Shown piece by piece: positions 25,341 to 33,382 of a DNA stretch of 33,568 bases; the stretch's first letter is position 1; the number at the start of each line of letters is the position of its first letter. The notes beneath the pieces were generated by a model, which was not told where the DNA came from, did no database searches, and worked only from the letters and a program-made list of their open reading frames with translations. Position numbers and translations under genes: made by a program. The stretch is from Deltaproteobacteria bacterium (GTDB lineage Bacteria; Desulfobacterota; Binatia; UBA9968), in the NCBI GenBank assembly GCA_016193465.1, contig JACPSE010000068.1, positions 1 through 33,568 on the forward strand, written 5' to 3'.

Positions 25341-26978
25341 ATGGTAGATAAGACACGACTAGATCCGGATGACCTGCTGGCGAGTTTGCGGAGAGACAAC
25401 CTGTCGATCTACGCTCGTCTGAAGGTTTTTCTGGGCATGGGTCCTGGGGCGACTAGAACCTACAGTATGTTACGGACTGCTACACCCATCCATGAGTTTT
25501 TTTTGGCTGCGGTTGCCATTGCTCTGGTTACCGGGGCTGCTTTACTGCTTGTGCCGTTCACGGGCTATCAGGCCACCGCCCTACTTTATCTCCTACTCGT
25601 TGTAGCGGTGGGACTGAAGTTGGGCCGCGGCCCCGTCCTCGCGGTGGCCGCTATCAGCGCCCTTCTGTGGAATTTCCTGTTCATTCCTCCCCACTTCACC
25701 TTCTACATTGATAATCTAAACGACGCGATGATGTTTGCGATGTTTTTCGTTGTGGCGATGGCCATGGGCCACCTAACCAGCCGCTTGCGCTTGAGCGAAG
25801 TCGCAGAACGCCGTCGCGAACGACGGACCGCGGCCCTCTACGAGCTGGCGCATCAGGCCGCGTTCGCTACGGACCTGGATACGGGTCTTCGGGCGGCAGT
25901 GAGTTTGATTGAATCTATTGTTGGGGCGCAAGCCGCGCTTCTTCTCCGTCAGAAGGATCATACGCTTTCTAACGCTACGCACCCGGCCAGCTCGTTCACT
26001 CTTTCCGACCAGGAGAAGGGCGTGGCGGCATGGACCTTTACCCGTAAGACGCCGGTGGGGAGGTTTACAGACACACTACCAGACTCAGAGGCCCTCCATC
26101 TCCCTCTTCAGGCACGCACCGCGGTAATGGGCGTTCTGTCTGTTCGTCCCCCTTCCGGTAAATCGTTTGACTTGAGCGAAAGAGAACTGCTCGAAGCCTT
26201 CGCGGTGCTGATCGGGTTAATTCTTGAAAAAGACCATGTCGTTGAAGCCTTTAAGCGCGCTGAGGTTCTCGAGGCTTCCGAGCGTTTACGGCGTGCCCTG
26301 CTCGACAGCGTTTCCCATGAACTCAAGACTCCTCTGTCTGCTGTTCAAGCCGGCATTGATGCTTTAAGCAAGCAGACCGACGACGACCAAAAAAAACAGG
26401 CTACGCTTCGAGAAGTACGTTCCGCGGTACGCCGGCTGCACCGGGTCATTGACAACCTGCTGGACATGACGCGTATTGAAACCGGAGTGGTCGAGCCGAA
26501 GCTGGATTGGTGCGATATCGGAGAGATGATCCGCGCAGCCACTGAGTTGGCCGGCGACGCGCTCCATGAACATCGCATCGTCATCGAAGCGGATGAGGCA
26601 CTTCCCATGGTCAAACTGGACCAAGCCCTTCTGGAGCAGTGCCTTAGTAACCTCTTGATCAATGCAGCCGCGTGGAGCGACCCAGGGACGAATATCACTG
26701 TTCGCGCGGATCTGGATGGGGATAAACTGGTGCTTTCGGTTCTTGATGAAGGGAGGGGCCTGAACGAGTCGGATTTGGCTCACATCTTTGAGAAGTTTTA
26801 TCGCGCCTCGGATGCTCGGCCCGGAGGCACAGGGCTCGGGCTCTCGATTGTCGAGGGCTTCGTTCGTGCACATGAAGGCTTTGTCCGTGCAGCCAACCGG
26901 AAGACGGGTGGGGCTGAATTCGCGCTGACGGTTCCGGTGGAAACGATGCGGGCAGAAACCATGGAGAGTTTAACTTGA
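25341..26978 (+). CDS. KdpD-like sensor kinase lacking the KdpD/Usp input domain
   Basis: I chose ATG 25341 (545 residues); TTG 25317 is also open. Residues 7-47 resemble the start of KdpD (RLDPDDLL, ARLKVFLGMGPGATRTYSML), where KdpD has KVFFGxxxGVGKTxxML, so the Walker A Lys-Thr is lost (GATRT). The roughly 350-residue KdpD/Usp region that should follow is absent; the protein goes straight to the four-helix DUF4118 membrane block (about 50-145), a GAF-like domain (about 165-300), HisKA (LLDSVSHELKTPLSAVQAG) and HATPase_c (CLSNLLINAAAWS, GGTGLGLSIVEGFVRAHEG). KdpD normally senses potassium and turgor and phosphorylates KdpE. The next gene overlaps by 4 bases. Confidence 0.85.
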   Translation: MVDKTRLDPDDLLASLRRDNLSIYARLKVFLGMGPGATRTYSMLRTATPIHEFFLAAVAIALVTGAALLLVPFTGYQATALLYLLLVVAVGLKLGRGPVLAVAAISALLWNFLFIPPHFTFYIDNLNDAMMFAMFFVVAMAMGHLTSRLRLSEVAERRRERRTAALYELAHQAAFATDLDTGLRAAVSLIESIVGAQAALLLRQKDHTLSNATHPASSFTLSDQEKGVAAWTFTRKTPVGRFTDTLPDSEALHLPLQARTAVMGVLSVRPPSGKSFDLSERELLEAFAVLIGLILEKDHVVEAFKRAEVLEASERLRRALLDSVSHELKTPLSAVQAGIDALSKQTDDDQKKQATLREVRSAVRRLHRVIDNLLDMTRIETGVVEPKLDWCDIGEMIRAATELAGDALHEHRIVIEADEALPMVKLDQALLEQCLSNLLINAAAWSDPGTNITVRADLDGDKLVLSVLDEGRGLNESDLAHIFEKFYRASDARPGGTGLGLSIVEGFVRAHEGFVRAANRKTGGAEFALTVPVETMRAETMESLT

Positions 26979-27682
26979 GCGAAAAACCCACAGCACTCGT
27001 TATCGATGATGAGCCTCAAATTCGAAAGCTTATCCGAATTGTCTTGGAGGCGGAGGGCTACCGCATGCTGGACTCCGACAGCGGCCGACAGGGGCTATCG
27101 GACATAGCGCTTCGAAGACCCGAGGTCGTCATTCTCGATCTGGGGCTACCGGATATGGACGGACTGGTCGTCCTCCGCAGGCTCCGTGAATGGAGCCGCG
27201 TCCCGGTATTGATTCTTTCTGTAAGGGATGGGCCTGAGGACAAAGTGGCAGCCTTAGACGCGGGTGCCGATGACTATGTTACCAAACCGTTCGACTCGAC
27301 CGAACTTCTCGCCCGCTTGCGGGCCATTCAAAGACGCGCCCCTTATGGAACCGAGGAGCCTTACTTTCAGGCAGGATACCTGGCCATCGACTTCAACAGC
27401 CACAACGTCACCGTGAAGGGCCACGAGGTAAAACTCACAGCCACCGCGTACGCTCTCCTTAAAGTACTGGCACAGCATGCGGGCAAAGTTGTCACTCACA
27501 AGCAATTACTGCGCGAAGTTTGGGGCCCAAACGCGGAGGAGCAATCACAATATCTGCGGGTTTACATGACGCATCTGCGCAAGAAAATCGAGATCCCTGA
27601 GGCCCCGGAAAAGCTCCTTCGAACGGAGAGCGGCATCGGCTATCGTCTGGTCCTACCCACAGGAAAGGGCATTAGGCAATAG
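26975..27682 (+). CDS. kdpE: KdpE-type response regulator
   Basis: The product is 235 residues from TTG 26975, overlapping the kinase stop (TTGA). The receiver has ALVIDDEPQIRKLIR, phospho-acceptor Asp in VVILDLGLPDMDG and Lys in DDYVTKPFDSTELLAR. The winged helix has the KdpE-specific LREVWGPNAEEQSQYLRVYM. KdpE activates kdpFABC in other bacteria, but no kdpABC is in this window, so the KimA-like gene is the obvious local target (inference). The last four codons (GIRQ) lie inside the flanking tRNA-region repeat, so the C-terminus may have been altered by repeat insertion. Confidence 0.88.
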   Translation: MSEKPTALVIDDEPQIRKLIRIVLEAEGYRMLDSDSGRQGLSDIALRRPEVVILDLGLPDMDGLVVLRRLREWSRVPVLILSVRDGPEDKVAALDAGADDYVTKPFDSTELLARLRAIQRRAPYGTEEPYFQAGYLAIDFNSHNVTVKGHEVKLTATAYALLKVLAQHAGKVVTHKQLLREVWGPNAEEQSQYLRVYMTHLRKKIEIPEAPEKLLRTESGIGYRLVLPTGKGIRQ

Positions 27683-27752
27683 GCATCAGTCTCCGCCCCT
27701 GACTCGTACTCTTTCCGTCTTTGCTATTGCCTAATGCCTCATGCCTGTTGCC
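27668..27752 (+). repeat. tRNA-flanking hairpin repeat, copy 1
   Basis: GGCATTAGGCAATAG at 27668-27682 pairs perfectly over 15 bases with CTATTGCCTAATGCC at 27724-27738. The loop holds CCGCCCCTGACTCG and TTCCGTCTTTG, which recur in copy 2. The left arm includes the kdpE stop codon. It may act as a bidirectional terminator between kdpE and the minus-strand tRNA. Confidence 0.75.
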
Positions 27753-27759
27753 TGCCTTG

Positions 27760-27852
<93 letters not shown>

Positions 27853-27862
27853 ATGAAAAACA

Positions 27863-27955
27863 GGCATCAGGCAATAGGCGTGAGGCATTAGTTCCCACCC
27901 CCTAACTGATAATCCTTCCGTCTTTGCTATTGCCTGTTGCCTACTGCCTATCGCC
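27863..27955 (+). repeat. tRNA-flanking hairpin repeat, copy 2
   Basis: CAGGCATCAGGCAATAGGCG starts at 27861 and is mirrored by CTATTGCCTGTTGCCTACTG and following bases up to 27957. The internal part (CCCCCTAACTGATAATCC, TTCCGTCTTTGCTATTGCCT) aligns with copy 1. The two copies alternate with the two tRNA-Ser sequences, so tRNA plus repeat looks like a duplicated unit of about 190 bases. Confidence 0.75.
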
Positions 27956-27963
27956 TGATTTTG

Positions 27964-28022
27964 TGGCGGAGAGGGAGGGATTTGAACCCCCGGTGCCCTT
28001 CCGGGCACACTTGATTTCGAGT
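27964..28022 (-). pseudogene. tRNA-Ser (CGA) 3' half; probable attachment site of an integrated element
   Basis: From 27964 (CCA end) to 28021 the minus strand reads as the 3' half of a serine tRNA: anticodon loop CTCGAAA (CGA), stem strand TCAAG, long variable arm GTGCCCGGAAGGGCAC, T-arm with TTCAAAT, acceptor strand CCTCTCC-G-CCA. The 5' half does not match: the strand that should read CTTGA reads AGGCA, and no GGAGAGG acceptor strand or D-arm follows. Homology stops at the anticodon loop, a known crossover point of tRNA-targeting tyrosine recombinases. I infer the left junction of an integrated element. Confidence 0.72.
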
Positions 28023-28126: not shown

Positions 28127-28172
28127 TCGGGCACATTTCAGGCACAGAGTCGGGCACAATCCAGGCACAGGG
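28127..28172 (+). repeat. Tandem 23-base repeat near the tRNA junction
   Basis: Two 23-base units (28127-28149 and 28150-28172) agree at 20 positions. Each holds two GGCACA cores, so GGCACA occurs at 28130, 28141, 28153 and 28164, spaced 11, 12 and 11 bases, that is one helical turn apart. Such phased direct repeats about 100 bases from a crossover site resemble integrase arm-type sites or replication iterons. No protein-coding signal explains them. Confidence 0.6.
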
Positions 28173-29554: not shown

Positions 29555-29776
29555 TTAAATTAGCTGGCTGTAGGATGGATCGAAGGTAATCCCTTTTGCT
29601 TTTTGAGGGCCCCTGTCCGGCGGGGCGTGGGACTCTTCCCATAGGCCTAAATATTGCAAGATTTTTTTAACTACCTCTGGCTGATCAATGAAACTGATGA
29701 TCCGCATCTCGCCCAGGCAGTTTGGACAGATAAGGGGATCTGCTTCATAGACTTTTCGGATGAAGTGAGACCACCG
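29555..29776 (-). mobile_element. C-terminal remnant of an IS91-family-type transposase
   Basis: The frame read from 29776 down to TAA 29555 gives KRWSHFIRKVYEADPLICPN, CLGEMRIISFIDQPEVVKKI, LQYLGLWEES and GITFDPSYSQLI. The pattern W-x5-IRKVYExDPLxCPxCxGxMRIIxFI with LGLW is the zinc-binding tail seen in many IS91/IS801-like Y2 transposases. The catalytic tyrosine part is absent; the sequence is cut just where the GIY-YIG gene begins on the other strand. The 200 bases beyond the stop (29356-29554) hold no gene and may include the former IS end. Confidence 0.75.
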
Positions 29777-29792
29777 TTTGGGAGGATTAGCC

Positions 29793-30395
29793 GTGGCGCT
29801 AAGCAACCAATTTGTCCGAAAACTTGATGATCTTTGGCACACACGGACGGCTAACATTCGTTCGCTTGTAACTCGAAGGCGGGGGCGACCGCGCGAGTTC
29901 TCTAAAGAGTCTCGCGAGAACTGCATATACGAATTGCAAAAATTAGCGACTAAGATTCTTTTACGTTCAGGGGTCAGGCGTGAGTTTCGTAAGGTAATAC
30001 TTTTTTCAAAGATGAATCGGATCGGATCTCTCGAATCGAGGGAAGCTGATCGTCTTCTTGTGTGGGCCAAGTCACTAGGTAAGCACCCTACTATCTACTC
30101 CTTTTGGAAAGGTAAGAAGTGTCTTTACGTAGGAAAAGCCGCCAACTTCGTCGCCCGACTCAATCACTATATAGCTGCGAAAAGCAAGTATTTGAGCTCA
30201 GGCAACACGATTAAAATATTTGCATTGAAACGACCCAGTCAGCTAGGCCAGGCAGAATGTTTGGCCATACATTTGTTGAATCCAATTGAGAACAAAGTCA
30301 AAGCTGCCCACCAGGCGTGGGGCAAATCGTGCCAAATTTGCGAGTTTCATGATCTTATTCGCGATGAATTACAGTCGCTTTTTCGAATGAAGTAA
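29793..30395 (+). CDS. GIY-YIG-like endonuclease-domain protein
   Basis: I chose GTG 29793 (200 residues) because GGGAGG lies 7 bases before it. The N-terminal 95 residues are basic (SLVTRRRGRPREFSK). The C-terminal half has a GIY-YIG core: PTIYSFWKGKKCLYVGKAAN gives the IYxF and LYVG strands, then the conserved Arg in ARLNHYI, and Glu with Asn in QAECLAIHLLNPIENK. The tail has KSCQICEFHD. GIY-YIG enzymes cut or nick DNA; members include homing enzymes, repair nucleases and element-borne nucleases. It starts exactly where the transposase remnant ends. Confidence 0.7.
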   Translation: MALSNQFVRKLDDLWHTRTANIRSLVTRRRGRPREFSKESRENCIYELQKLATKILLRSGVRREFRKVILFSKMNRIGSLESREADRLLVWAKSLGKHPTIYSFWKGKKCLYVGKAANFVARLNHYIAAKSKYLSSGNTIKIFALKRPSQLGQAECLAIHLLNPIENKVKAAHQAWGKSCQICEFHDLIRDELQSLFRMK

Positions 30396-30927: not shown

Positions 30928-31644
30928 TCATGTGAACGGAGCAGATCTAACCTTTGGGTTTTTACGTTTTTGCTCACGTCTTATCTCTTTCACATAGCCG
31001 TAGATCTGCGCGTGTCTCACTCTTCTTTTGCACTTCTTCGAGCACGCGACTCTTAGGATCTTCGTCTTCAAGTAGAATTTTCCGCACGGCAGGCCGTCCT
31101 TATATTTGGCCTGGCATTGCTCGACGTTCCGCGTCAGGCCGCTCGTGAACAACAAGATCAGTCCGAACCAGGCGGCGCTCTGTACGCCGGATAGGAACGG
31201 CAGGGCATCGAATCGGAGGTTGCCGTGCCGGTCGAAAGAGAGGGTCGGTATTCCCCACGTCTTGAAACAAAGAACAGGCTTGACTGTGCCATTGCGGTCA
31301 TGCGCCAGGATGTGGGCAGTCTCGACGCAATCGGTCTGAAACTGGCGCACGATGTCGTTTTTGACTTTGATCATATCGTACTTTGGAGTCACCTCGGTCT
31401 TCTTCCCCCTCGCCTTGTCATTCGTAGCCACAATCATCTTGAACCATTCCCGCAGGGTGTCCCTCATGTCGATGAAACTAGCGACATCGCTCTTCCTGCC
31501 GATCTTCCGCCATAGGGGAAACCTGACCACTAGGGGGTGCTCCCGAAACAGGCGCTCCACTTGGTCGGTGTATCGTATGTCTTTGATATTCGCCAAGTCC
31601 AACACTCGCTGAACCAAACTCTTCTGCTCGTCTGAGATTATCAT
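30928..31644 (-). CDS. Zinc-finger protein of unknown function (CGNR-like C-terminus)
   Basis: The product is 238 residues from ATG 31644. The N-terminal 130 residues are mainly helical (EQKSLVQRVLDLANIKDI, FIDMRDTLREWFKMIVATND). The C-terminus has a Cys cluster (VEQCQAKYKDGLPCGKFYLK, then VACSKKCKRRVRHAQIYGYV) that resembles a CGNR-type zinc finger, followed by a basic tail. It is divergent from the ribbon-helix-helix gene with 112 bases between; that spacer holds two operator-like palindromes. A DNA- or RNA-binding regulatory role is plausible. Confidence 0.62.
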   Translation of the reverse strand: MIISDEQKSLVQRVLDLANIKDIRYTDQVERLFREHPLVVRFPLWRKIGRKSDVASFIDMRDTLREWFKMIVATNDKARGKKTEVTPKYDMIKVKNDIVRQFQTDCVETAHILAHDRNGTVKPVLCFKTWGIPTLSFDRHGNLRFDALPFLSGVQSAAWFGLILLFTSGLTRNVEQCQAKYKDGLPCGKFYLKTKILRVACSKKCKRRVRHAQIYGYVKEIRREQKRKNPKVRSAPFT

Positions 31645-31948: not shown

Positions 31949-32103
31949 GTGGTCTCTTTGAAAAAGTAACAATCCTCGCAACACCGGAAGTTTCTCGAGC
32001 ATTCTTCCCCGATGTAGACCCGAAGCGGGATGGAAGCGGAAGGGAGAAAGCAAAAAAAGGTCCTCCTCTGTGTCGAGGAGAACGGGGGAACAATGGGCAT
32101 TAA
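31945..32103 (+). CDS. Small coupled reading frame (52 residues)
   Basis: ATG 31945 overlaps the stop of the ribbon-helix-helix gene (ATGA), and the frame ends at TAA 32103, 11 bases inside the next gene. The product (MSGLFEKVTILATPEVSRAF to LCRGERGNNGH) has no recognisable domain. Its tight fit between two genes argues that it is translated, perhaps mainly to couple ribosomes to the RepA-like gene. Confidence 0.5.
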   Translation: MSGLFEKVTILATPEVSRAFFPDVDPKRDGSGREKAKKGPPLCRGERGNNGH

Positions 32104-33382
32104 CAGGGAACTTCTGACCCCCACTCCTCACCCGGACTACGAGGCTTTTACGGTCCGAGAAATCCAACAGGACTTGGAGCGGATAGACAACGAGTTATCT
32201 TTTGCCAAGGAACACGGAGCGGAGACCCTATTTATACAGTGGCTAGCTGATGAGCGCGACTTTGCTTTGGGAGAGCTGGCCCGGCGCAACGGCCAGCCTA
32301 ACCCTTTCCTCCTTTCCTCCCCCCTATGTCAGGGGAAAGCCGGAAAACAGGAAAGCCCCTCTTATCTACCCCTAATCTCTTCCCGTGACCTACTCCCCAA
32401 AGAGGGAGAAGAGTCGGTTGACTGGCTGGTAGACAACCTCATCCCCAAGGGTTGCGTTGTTCTTCTAACCGCCCCTCCTGGCTCCTACAAGACCTTTTTC
32501 GCCCTCAGTCTTGGCCGCTCTGTGGGTCAGGGTGAGCCATTCTTAGGCCGGGCGCTGGAAGCCGCAAGCGTAACCTATGTTGACAGGGAGAACCCGAGAA
32601 GCGTTCTTAGCAGTCGATTAAAAGCTGTTGGCCCGTCTCCTAACCTCACCCTTTGGCCTCTCTGGGCCGAGCCTGAACCCCCGCTCCTGGGTGACAAGAG
32701 CTATCTGACTCTCGCCAGTGATAGGAGCCTGCTTGTTTTTGATTCACTCCGTAGATTCCATACGGGAAGCGAGAATGCCCCAGAAGAAATGGCCGTTGTT
32801 ATGGGCTATCTCCGGGAGCTTACAAAGCCGGGCGCTACCGTTCTAGTTCTCCACCATACGGGAAAAGCTGAGGGCAGCATTTACAGAGGGACAACAGAAA
32901 TTTTAGCGGGGGTAGATGTGGCTTTTTCCCTTGAGAAAGACAAACAACAGACGCGGGTTTTAGGAACCCCTGTTCCCTTAACCCTTCGGTGCGTCAAGCA
33001 CAGATTCATTGAAGAGCCGACTTTAAGCCTTGAGTTTGCAGTCGAGGGGGAGCGGGTAGTTTTTCGGGACGTAACGGCGTCGCGCCAAGAAGAGCGGGAG
33101 GAAGACAAACGAGAAAAGCTTGAGGAGATCCAGGAGGTGATACAGAAACTTGAGAGGGAACAAGGGACCCCTAATCAAACCCAAGTGCTCAGAGCCTTAA
33201 AAAACACCCTGAACATCGGGAAGAACGCGGCCCTTAACCTCCTTGGCAGAGGAGAGGGTAGTCATTGGAGATCCGAACCAAAGGACGGGTCAAGGCGCTA
33301 TCAGACCCTTTCCCCCTTTCCTGAGACTATAGGGAGAGGAAAGGAGGAAAGCCTTGGAGGAGGGTGGGAGCAAGTCTTATGA
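32093..33382 (+). CDS. RepA-like AAA ATPase / hexameric helicase
   Basis: I chose ATG 32093 (429 residues), with GGGGG 4 bases upstream and overlap with the small frame; ATG 32030 is an alternative. Residues about 98-330 form an AAA_25/RepA-type RecA fold: Walker A TAPPGSYKTFF (126-136), VTYVDRENPRSVLSSRLKAV, Walker B LLVFDSLRRFH and VLVLHHTGKAEGSIYRG with the sensor His-His. The C-terminus has a helical bundle rich in Lys and Glu (ERREDKREKLEEIQEVIQKL-like) and a probable helix-turn-helix (TPNQTQVLRALKNTLNIG). RSF1010 RepA relatives unwind plasmid or element DNA at replication initiation. The stop overlaps the next start (ATGA). Confidence 0.8.
   Translation: MGINRELLTPTPHPDYEAFTVREIQQDLERIDNELSFAKEHGAETLFIQWLADERDFALGELARRNGQPNPFLLSSPLCQGKAGKQESPSYLPLISSRDLLPKEGEESVDWLVDNLIPKGCVVLLTAPPGSYKTFFALSLGRSVGQGEPFLGRALEAASVTYVDRENPRSVLSSRLKAVGPSPNLTLWPLWAEPEPPLLGDKSYLTLASDRSLLVFDSLRRFHTGSENAPEEMAVVMGYLRELTKPGATVLVLHHTGKAEGSIYRGTTEILAGVDVAFSLEKDKQQTRVLGTPVPLTLRCVKHRFIEEPTLSLEFAVEGERVVFRDVTASRQEEREEDKREKLEEIQEVIQKLEREQGTPNQTQVLRALKNTLNIGKNAALNLLGRGEGSHWRSEPKDGSRRYQTLSPFPETIGRGKEESLGGGWEQVL

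Follow-up and report, generated by a model that had tools for sequence, protein, structure and literature searches.

A displaced 3' half of tRNA-Ser(CGA) marks the integrase-distal attachment site of an integrative element

The window analysed here, which is contig C56 in its entirety (33,568 bp), contains the 3' half of a tRNA-Ser(CGA) gene, and identification of this 59-bp stretch as the integrase-distal attachment site of an integrative element is well supported. Recombination by a tyrosine integrase in the anticodon loop almost certainly brought the element into tRNA-Ser(CGA), with the tRNA rebuilt at the integrase end. In the proposed mechanism, the exchange would occur inside the loop and the attP of the element would bear tRNA sequence from loop to CCA, so that integration would leave the integrase end with a whole, rebuilt tRNA (C41:58503-58594), while the 3' half that was there before would be pushed to the opposite end (window 27964-28022). 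An integrase gene does lie just 3' of the intact tRNA, together with ribbon-helix-helix (RHH) and HTH_17 excisionase-like genes, and candidate arm-type repeats flank the core on both sides.

Read on the minus strand, positions 27964-28022 (ACTCGAAATCAAGTGTGCCCGGAAGGGCACCGGGGGTTCAAATCCCTCCCTCTCCGCCA) span from the anticodon loop CTCGAAA to CCA. Their match to the intact tRNA-Ser(CGA) of contig C41 has an E-value of about 1e-24, which excludes a chance match, and the genome holds only two full-identity copies of the 59 bp (the window copy and C41:58536-58594). ARAGORN and Rfam, applied to the window, called tRNA-Ser(GGA) only and not the CGA copy, which is a true half gene; it is undamaged, its end coincides exactly with the anticodon loop, and the sequence upstream of the loop is unrelated to the 5' half of tRNA-Ser(CGA). 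At the half tRNA, GC content drops from about 55.8% on the chromosomal side to 51.6% on the element side, and gene content switches from kdpD/kdpE and tRNA-Ser(GGA) to TerS-like, probable transposase-remnant, RHH and AAA_25 genes. Half-copies of tRNA-Ser(CGA) were found eight times in six genomes of the family (once each in G000, G010, G015 and G023, twice each in G006 and G008), all of them starting at CTCGAAA or one base earlier, which places the left border of exchange at the edge of the 7-nt loop; we infer that CTCGAAA is the 7-bp overlap region, with cleavage at the borders of the loop. An earlier note on this DNA had described a tRNA-Ser(CGA) cut at its anticodon loop with the 5' half replaced, a change from housekeeping to mobile-type genes at the same point and a crossover in the loop, all of which these data bear out, while its broader statement that this is the end of an integrated element stands as to the element end and is now refined to the integrase-distal one.

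Since the window comprises all of C56, the far end could be found only on another contig. On C41, tadA (NCBIfam PRK10860, 156 bits with the cut-off at 150) is followed by the intact tRNA-Ser(CGA) and then, on the opposite strand, by a tyrosine integrase gene, an RHH gene and an HTH_17 gene before the contig ends at 61012. The integrase gene lies 126 bp past the tRNA, and its motifs are readable in the sequence (the R in GWRKSEI, HDLRR, GH and the Y motif). An integrase beside the tRNA that it has rebuilt is the textbook arrangement.

A congeneric genome, G003, carries the uninterrupted tRNA-Ser(CGA) on its contig C171 (L038:1061-4230). When the left flank of C41 through the tRNA was joined to the flank of C56, the result was collinear with this G003 site, with identities of 75% for tadA, 99% for tRNA-Ser(CGA) and 73% from tRNA-Ser(GGA) through kdpE and kdpD; thus, C41 and C56 are two sides of one locus with foreign DNA between them. 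The complete tRNA-Ser(CGA) and the nearby integrase that the earlier note had predicted outside the window were both found, with an identical core and with the tRNA regenerated rather than lost, and the comparison that it had proposed with a relative lacking the element revealed a whole tRNA flanked by tadA and, in the other direction, by tRNA-Ser(GGA)-kdpE-kdpD (Table 1).

Table 1. Features of the window (positions without prefix), of contig C41 and of the G003 empty site (L038)
Feature	Position	Strand	Basis or remark
kdpE-like response regulator, chromosomal flank	26975..27682	+	same place in G003 empty site
Intact tRNA-Ser(GGA), chromosomal neighbour outside element	27760..27852	-	ARAGORN/Rfam; adjoins tRNA-Ser(CGA) in G003
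Displaced tRNA-Ser(CGA) 3' half, 59 nt	27964..28022	-	100% identity to positions 34-92 of intact tRNA on C41
Anticodon loop CTCGAAA	28015..28021	-	left limit of identity in alignment of eight half-copies, six genomes
Four direct TGTGCC repeats, candidate integrase arm-type sites, distal arm	28130..28169	-	spacing 11/12/11 bp
Terminase small subunit-like HTH protein, 125 aa	28667..29044	+	phrog_2538 E=2e-15; HTH_Tnp_IS630 E=7.5e-6
ORF, 98 aa	29059..29355	+	no family match
ORF, C-terminal part like end of ISCR-type transposases	29555..30070	-	NCBIfam NF052416 E=0.0027, residues 99-148 (weak); probable transposase remnant
GIY-YIG-like ORF, start uncertain	29778..30395	+	Pfam GIY-YIG E=0.012; phrog_1111 E=6e-4 (weak)
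ORF, 238 aa, C-terminal Cys cluster	30928..31644	-	no significant family match
Small ribbon-helix-helix protein, 63 aa	31757..31948	+	NikA-like E=5e-4, RHH_1 E=1e-3; neither reaches its curated cut-off
AAA_25 RecA/RepA-like helicase-type ATPase	32030..33382	+	PF13481 E=2.8e-27; phage helicase/primase families
Small CxxC protein gene, cut by contig end	33379..33568	+	67% aa / 71% DNA identity to gene at C41 end
Intact tRNA-Ser(CGA), 92 nt	C41:58503-58594		59-bp core is its 3' part, C41:58536-58594
Tyrosine integrase, 377 aa	C41:58721-59854		PF00589 E=4e-22; phrog_1 E=7e-50
Ribbon-helix-helix protein, 60 aa	C41, past integrase		
HTH_17 protein, 95 aa	C41, past RHH gene		matches excisionase families
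tadA	L038 1061-1498		G003 empty site
tRNA-Ser(CGA)	L038 1674-1765		G003 empty site
tRNA-Ser(GGA)	L038 1838-1930		G003 empty site; 72-bp spacer between tRNAs
kdpE	L038 2036-2728	-	G003 empty site
kdpD	L038 2728-4230	-	G003 empty site

The spacers on either side of tRNA-Ser(GGA) in the window (27664-27760 and 27856-27963) contain degenerate heptad repeats of the GCCTATT/GCCTAAT type in inverted orientation and fold as long hairpins (z -2.9 and -5.3, respectively). A 17-mer common to both spacers (CGTCTTTGCTATTGCCT) has no other site in the genome, one mismatch being allowed, and the corresponding G003 spacers are unlike them.

By analogy with lambda-type integrases, the TGTGCC repeats are probably arm-type binding sites. 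Read in the direction of the tRNA, the window-side copies precede the core by 147, 136, 124 and 113 bp; on the integrase side two copies lie 80 and 91 bp past the tRNA, and one turn before them stands a TGTGCT copy. The pattern TTGTGCC-N4..7-TGTGCC occurs at exactly two sites in the 4.5-Mb genome, namely within the window repeats and at C41:58674-58691, and its reversed control at none; about 86 kb of flanking chromosome had no same-strand TGTGCC pairs less than 55 bp apart. Most of the related integrases that were looked at by eye had similar tandem repeats (TTGTGCCC, TTGTCCGAG and TTGTCCGTG) next to them at the matching place.

Two other explanations of the half tRNA were weighed. It might be a decayed or partly duplicated tRNA gene, and other routes to tRNA fragments do exist, such as CRISPR capture of viral tRNA sequence (PMC9897764); we consider this extremely improbable, since an undamaged half stops exactly at the loop, the rebuilt tRNA adjoins an integrase, an empty site exists and arm repeats are present at both ends. 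An exact 59-bp repeat could also mislead short-read assembly, in which case the assembler would have crossed two loci and the half tRNA would lie beside mobile genes artefactually. There is very little chance of this, because the outer flanks adjoin in the empty relative, the inner flanks share rare repeats and the same arrangement is found in five other genomes; moreover, a swap of partners at the repeat would still require an inserted element.

The favoured reading, integration into the anticodon loop, gives the element a minimum size of about 8.0 kb (2.4 kb on C41, 5.5 kb on C56 and one attachment site). Its proposed ends lie on different contigs that do not overlap, sharing only a homologous gene: both C41 and C56 end in a CxxC gene, just ahead of which a helicase-like frame finishes (...WEQVL), and the two CxxC genes, with 71% DNA identity over 198 bp, are therefore different copies. 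Consequently, either the interior departs from a simple single copy or some of it is absent, and two elements in tandem or a duplication within one may be present. Apart from two distant integrases, the assembly contained, beyond the contig ends, no further helicase, integrase or CxxC gene copies that would bridge the gap. The rare arm repeats common to both ends support a link between C41 and C56, and we infer one continuous element joining the right ends of the two contigs. As a refinement of integration rather than an alternative to it, two related elements could stand in tandem at tRNA-Ser(CGA), one with the integrase, RHH and excisionase genes seen on C41 and the other with the AAA_25 and TerS-like genes seen on C56; the assembly would then lack the stretch between the two, in which a further half tRNA would lie. 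The last helicase-like codons and complete CxxC gene at the end of C41, their diverged counterparts at the end of C56 and the tandem half-copies at the same locus in G006 and G008 speak for this version, which we hold to be possible though somewhat doubtful, as the assembly has no third 59-bp copy, no second integrase of the C41 clade and no further paired arm repeats, and as internal duplication of a helicase-CxxC unit would account for the same facts. This ambiguity of the interior leaves the reading of the half tRNA unaffected.

Integration into tRNA genes with a carried replacement half is very common for bacterial islands. The mechanism is already well known and is not new: the Islander database maps islands by the pair of regenerated tRNA and displaced fragment and counts 2083 islands with an anticodon-centred site (PMC4383910), and a review of archaeal tyrosine recombinases describes a 7-bp overlap and core sites that match the anticodon loop and stem (PMC8371274). 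Consistently with Islander subsite A, the regenerated tRNA lies beside the integrase, the 3' fragment at the far end and the crossover in the anticodon loop, with no essential difference, the ends of the present element being on separate contigs.

Genes of integrase, excisionase/regulator, replication and packaging kinds are all present, split over the C41 and C56 parts. The AAA_25 gene is the probable replication gene of the element; it had only weak matches to phage helicases (about 25% identity) and no relatives in the family, in 148 genomes of the class or in viral contigs. PADLOC detected no defence genes. This gene set recalls phage satellites, but a decayed prophage or an integrative mobilizable element would fit it as well. 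PICI-type satellites have a similar order of zones, with integrase and HTH_17, a replication gene and a late-type gene (PMC10111431), and the present element has its TerS-like gene near the distal end; it differs in that no capsid or other late genes were seen in its available parts, the interior being incomplete, in that its integrase and most of its genes point towards the tRNA, in its AAA_25 replication gene and in its undamaged tRNA fragment, whereas damage to the fragment is reported for PICIs (PMC10111431). With integrative mobilizable elements it shares small size, a tyrosine integrase and a weakly NikA-like RHH protein, but no relaxase was matched among the genes scanned on the C41 and C56 parts. 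It is unlikely, though conceivable, that the element represents an undescribed type of phage satellite in a little-studied family, combining an anticodon-loop integrase, an AAA_25 protein without relatives in the class and a TerS-like gene, its integrase lineage otherwise found at tRNA-Leu(CAA) and Ser(TGA) and now at Ser(CGA).

Relatives of the C41 integrase sit directly 3' of tRNA-Leu(CAA), Ser(TGA), Ser(GGA), Phe, Lys, Glu and Ala(CGC); in viral contigs no close relative was found, and there was one distant match. In G010, the integrase at tRNA-Leu(CAA) (C269, L075 4773-5864) has one in-frame TAG and is possibly a broken relative. In G008, a 3-kb mini-element may be present at tRNA-Ala(CGC) (C78, L084 4315-7418): an integrase directly follows the tRNA, whose 47 bp from loop to CCA recur unchanged about 3 kb away. 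In a tree of 18 integrases, the C41 integrase clusters with those at tRNA-Leu(CAA) and Ser(TGA), and the Ser(CGA) integrases of G010, G015 and G023 form a separate group; a tree uniting the Ser(CGA) integrases was rejected (AU p = 3e-72, and p = 1e-6 when the Ser(GGA) integrase was added). tRNA-Ser(CGA) has thus been reached by at least two lineages. Between the two serine tRNAs of the pair in G006 (C144, L043 1384-8431), two successive half-copies end 5.2 kb and 6.3 kb past the intact tRNA, with histidine-kinase-like genes and no recognisable integrase of the C41 family between them; this array probably consists of decayed insertions. In G015, an integrase of the other lineage directly follows tRNA-Ser(GGA) (C374, L085 825-2113), so that both tRNAs of the pair are targets.

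The locus is a clean worked example: a half tRNA forecast an empty site, a rebuilt tRNA with an integrase and, by implication, arm sites. All were found, the integrase and rebuilt tRNA having turned up on another contig of a fragmented assembly. The example also shows that paired arm repeats can tie two element ends together across contig breaks. With eight half-copies in six genomes sharing their start at the loop, tRNA-Ser(CGA) is a recurrent target, and in this family insertions recur within the tadA-tRNA-Ser(CGA)-tRNA-Ser(GGA)-kdpE interval.
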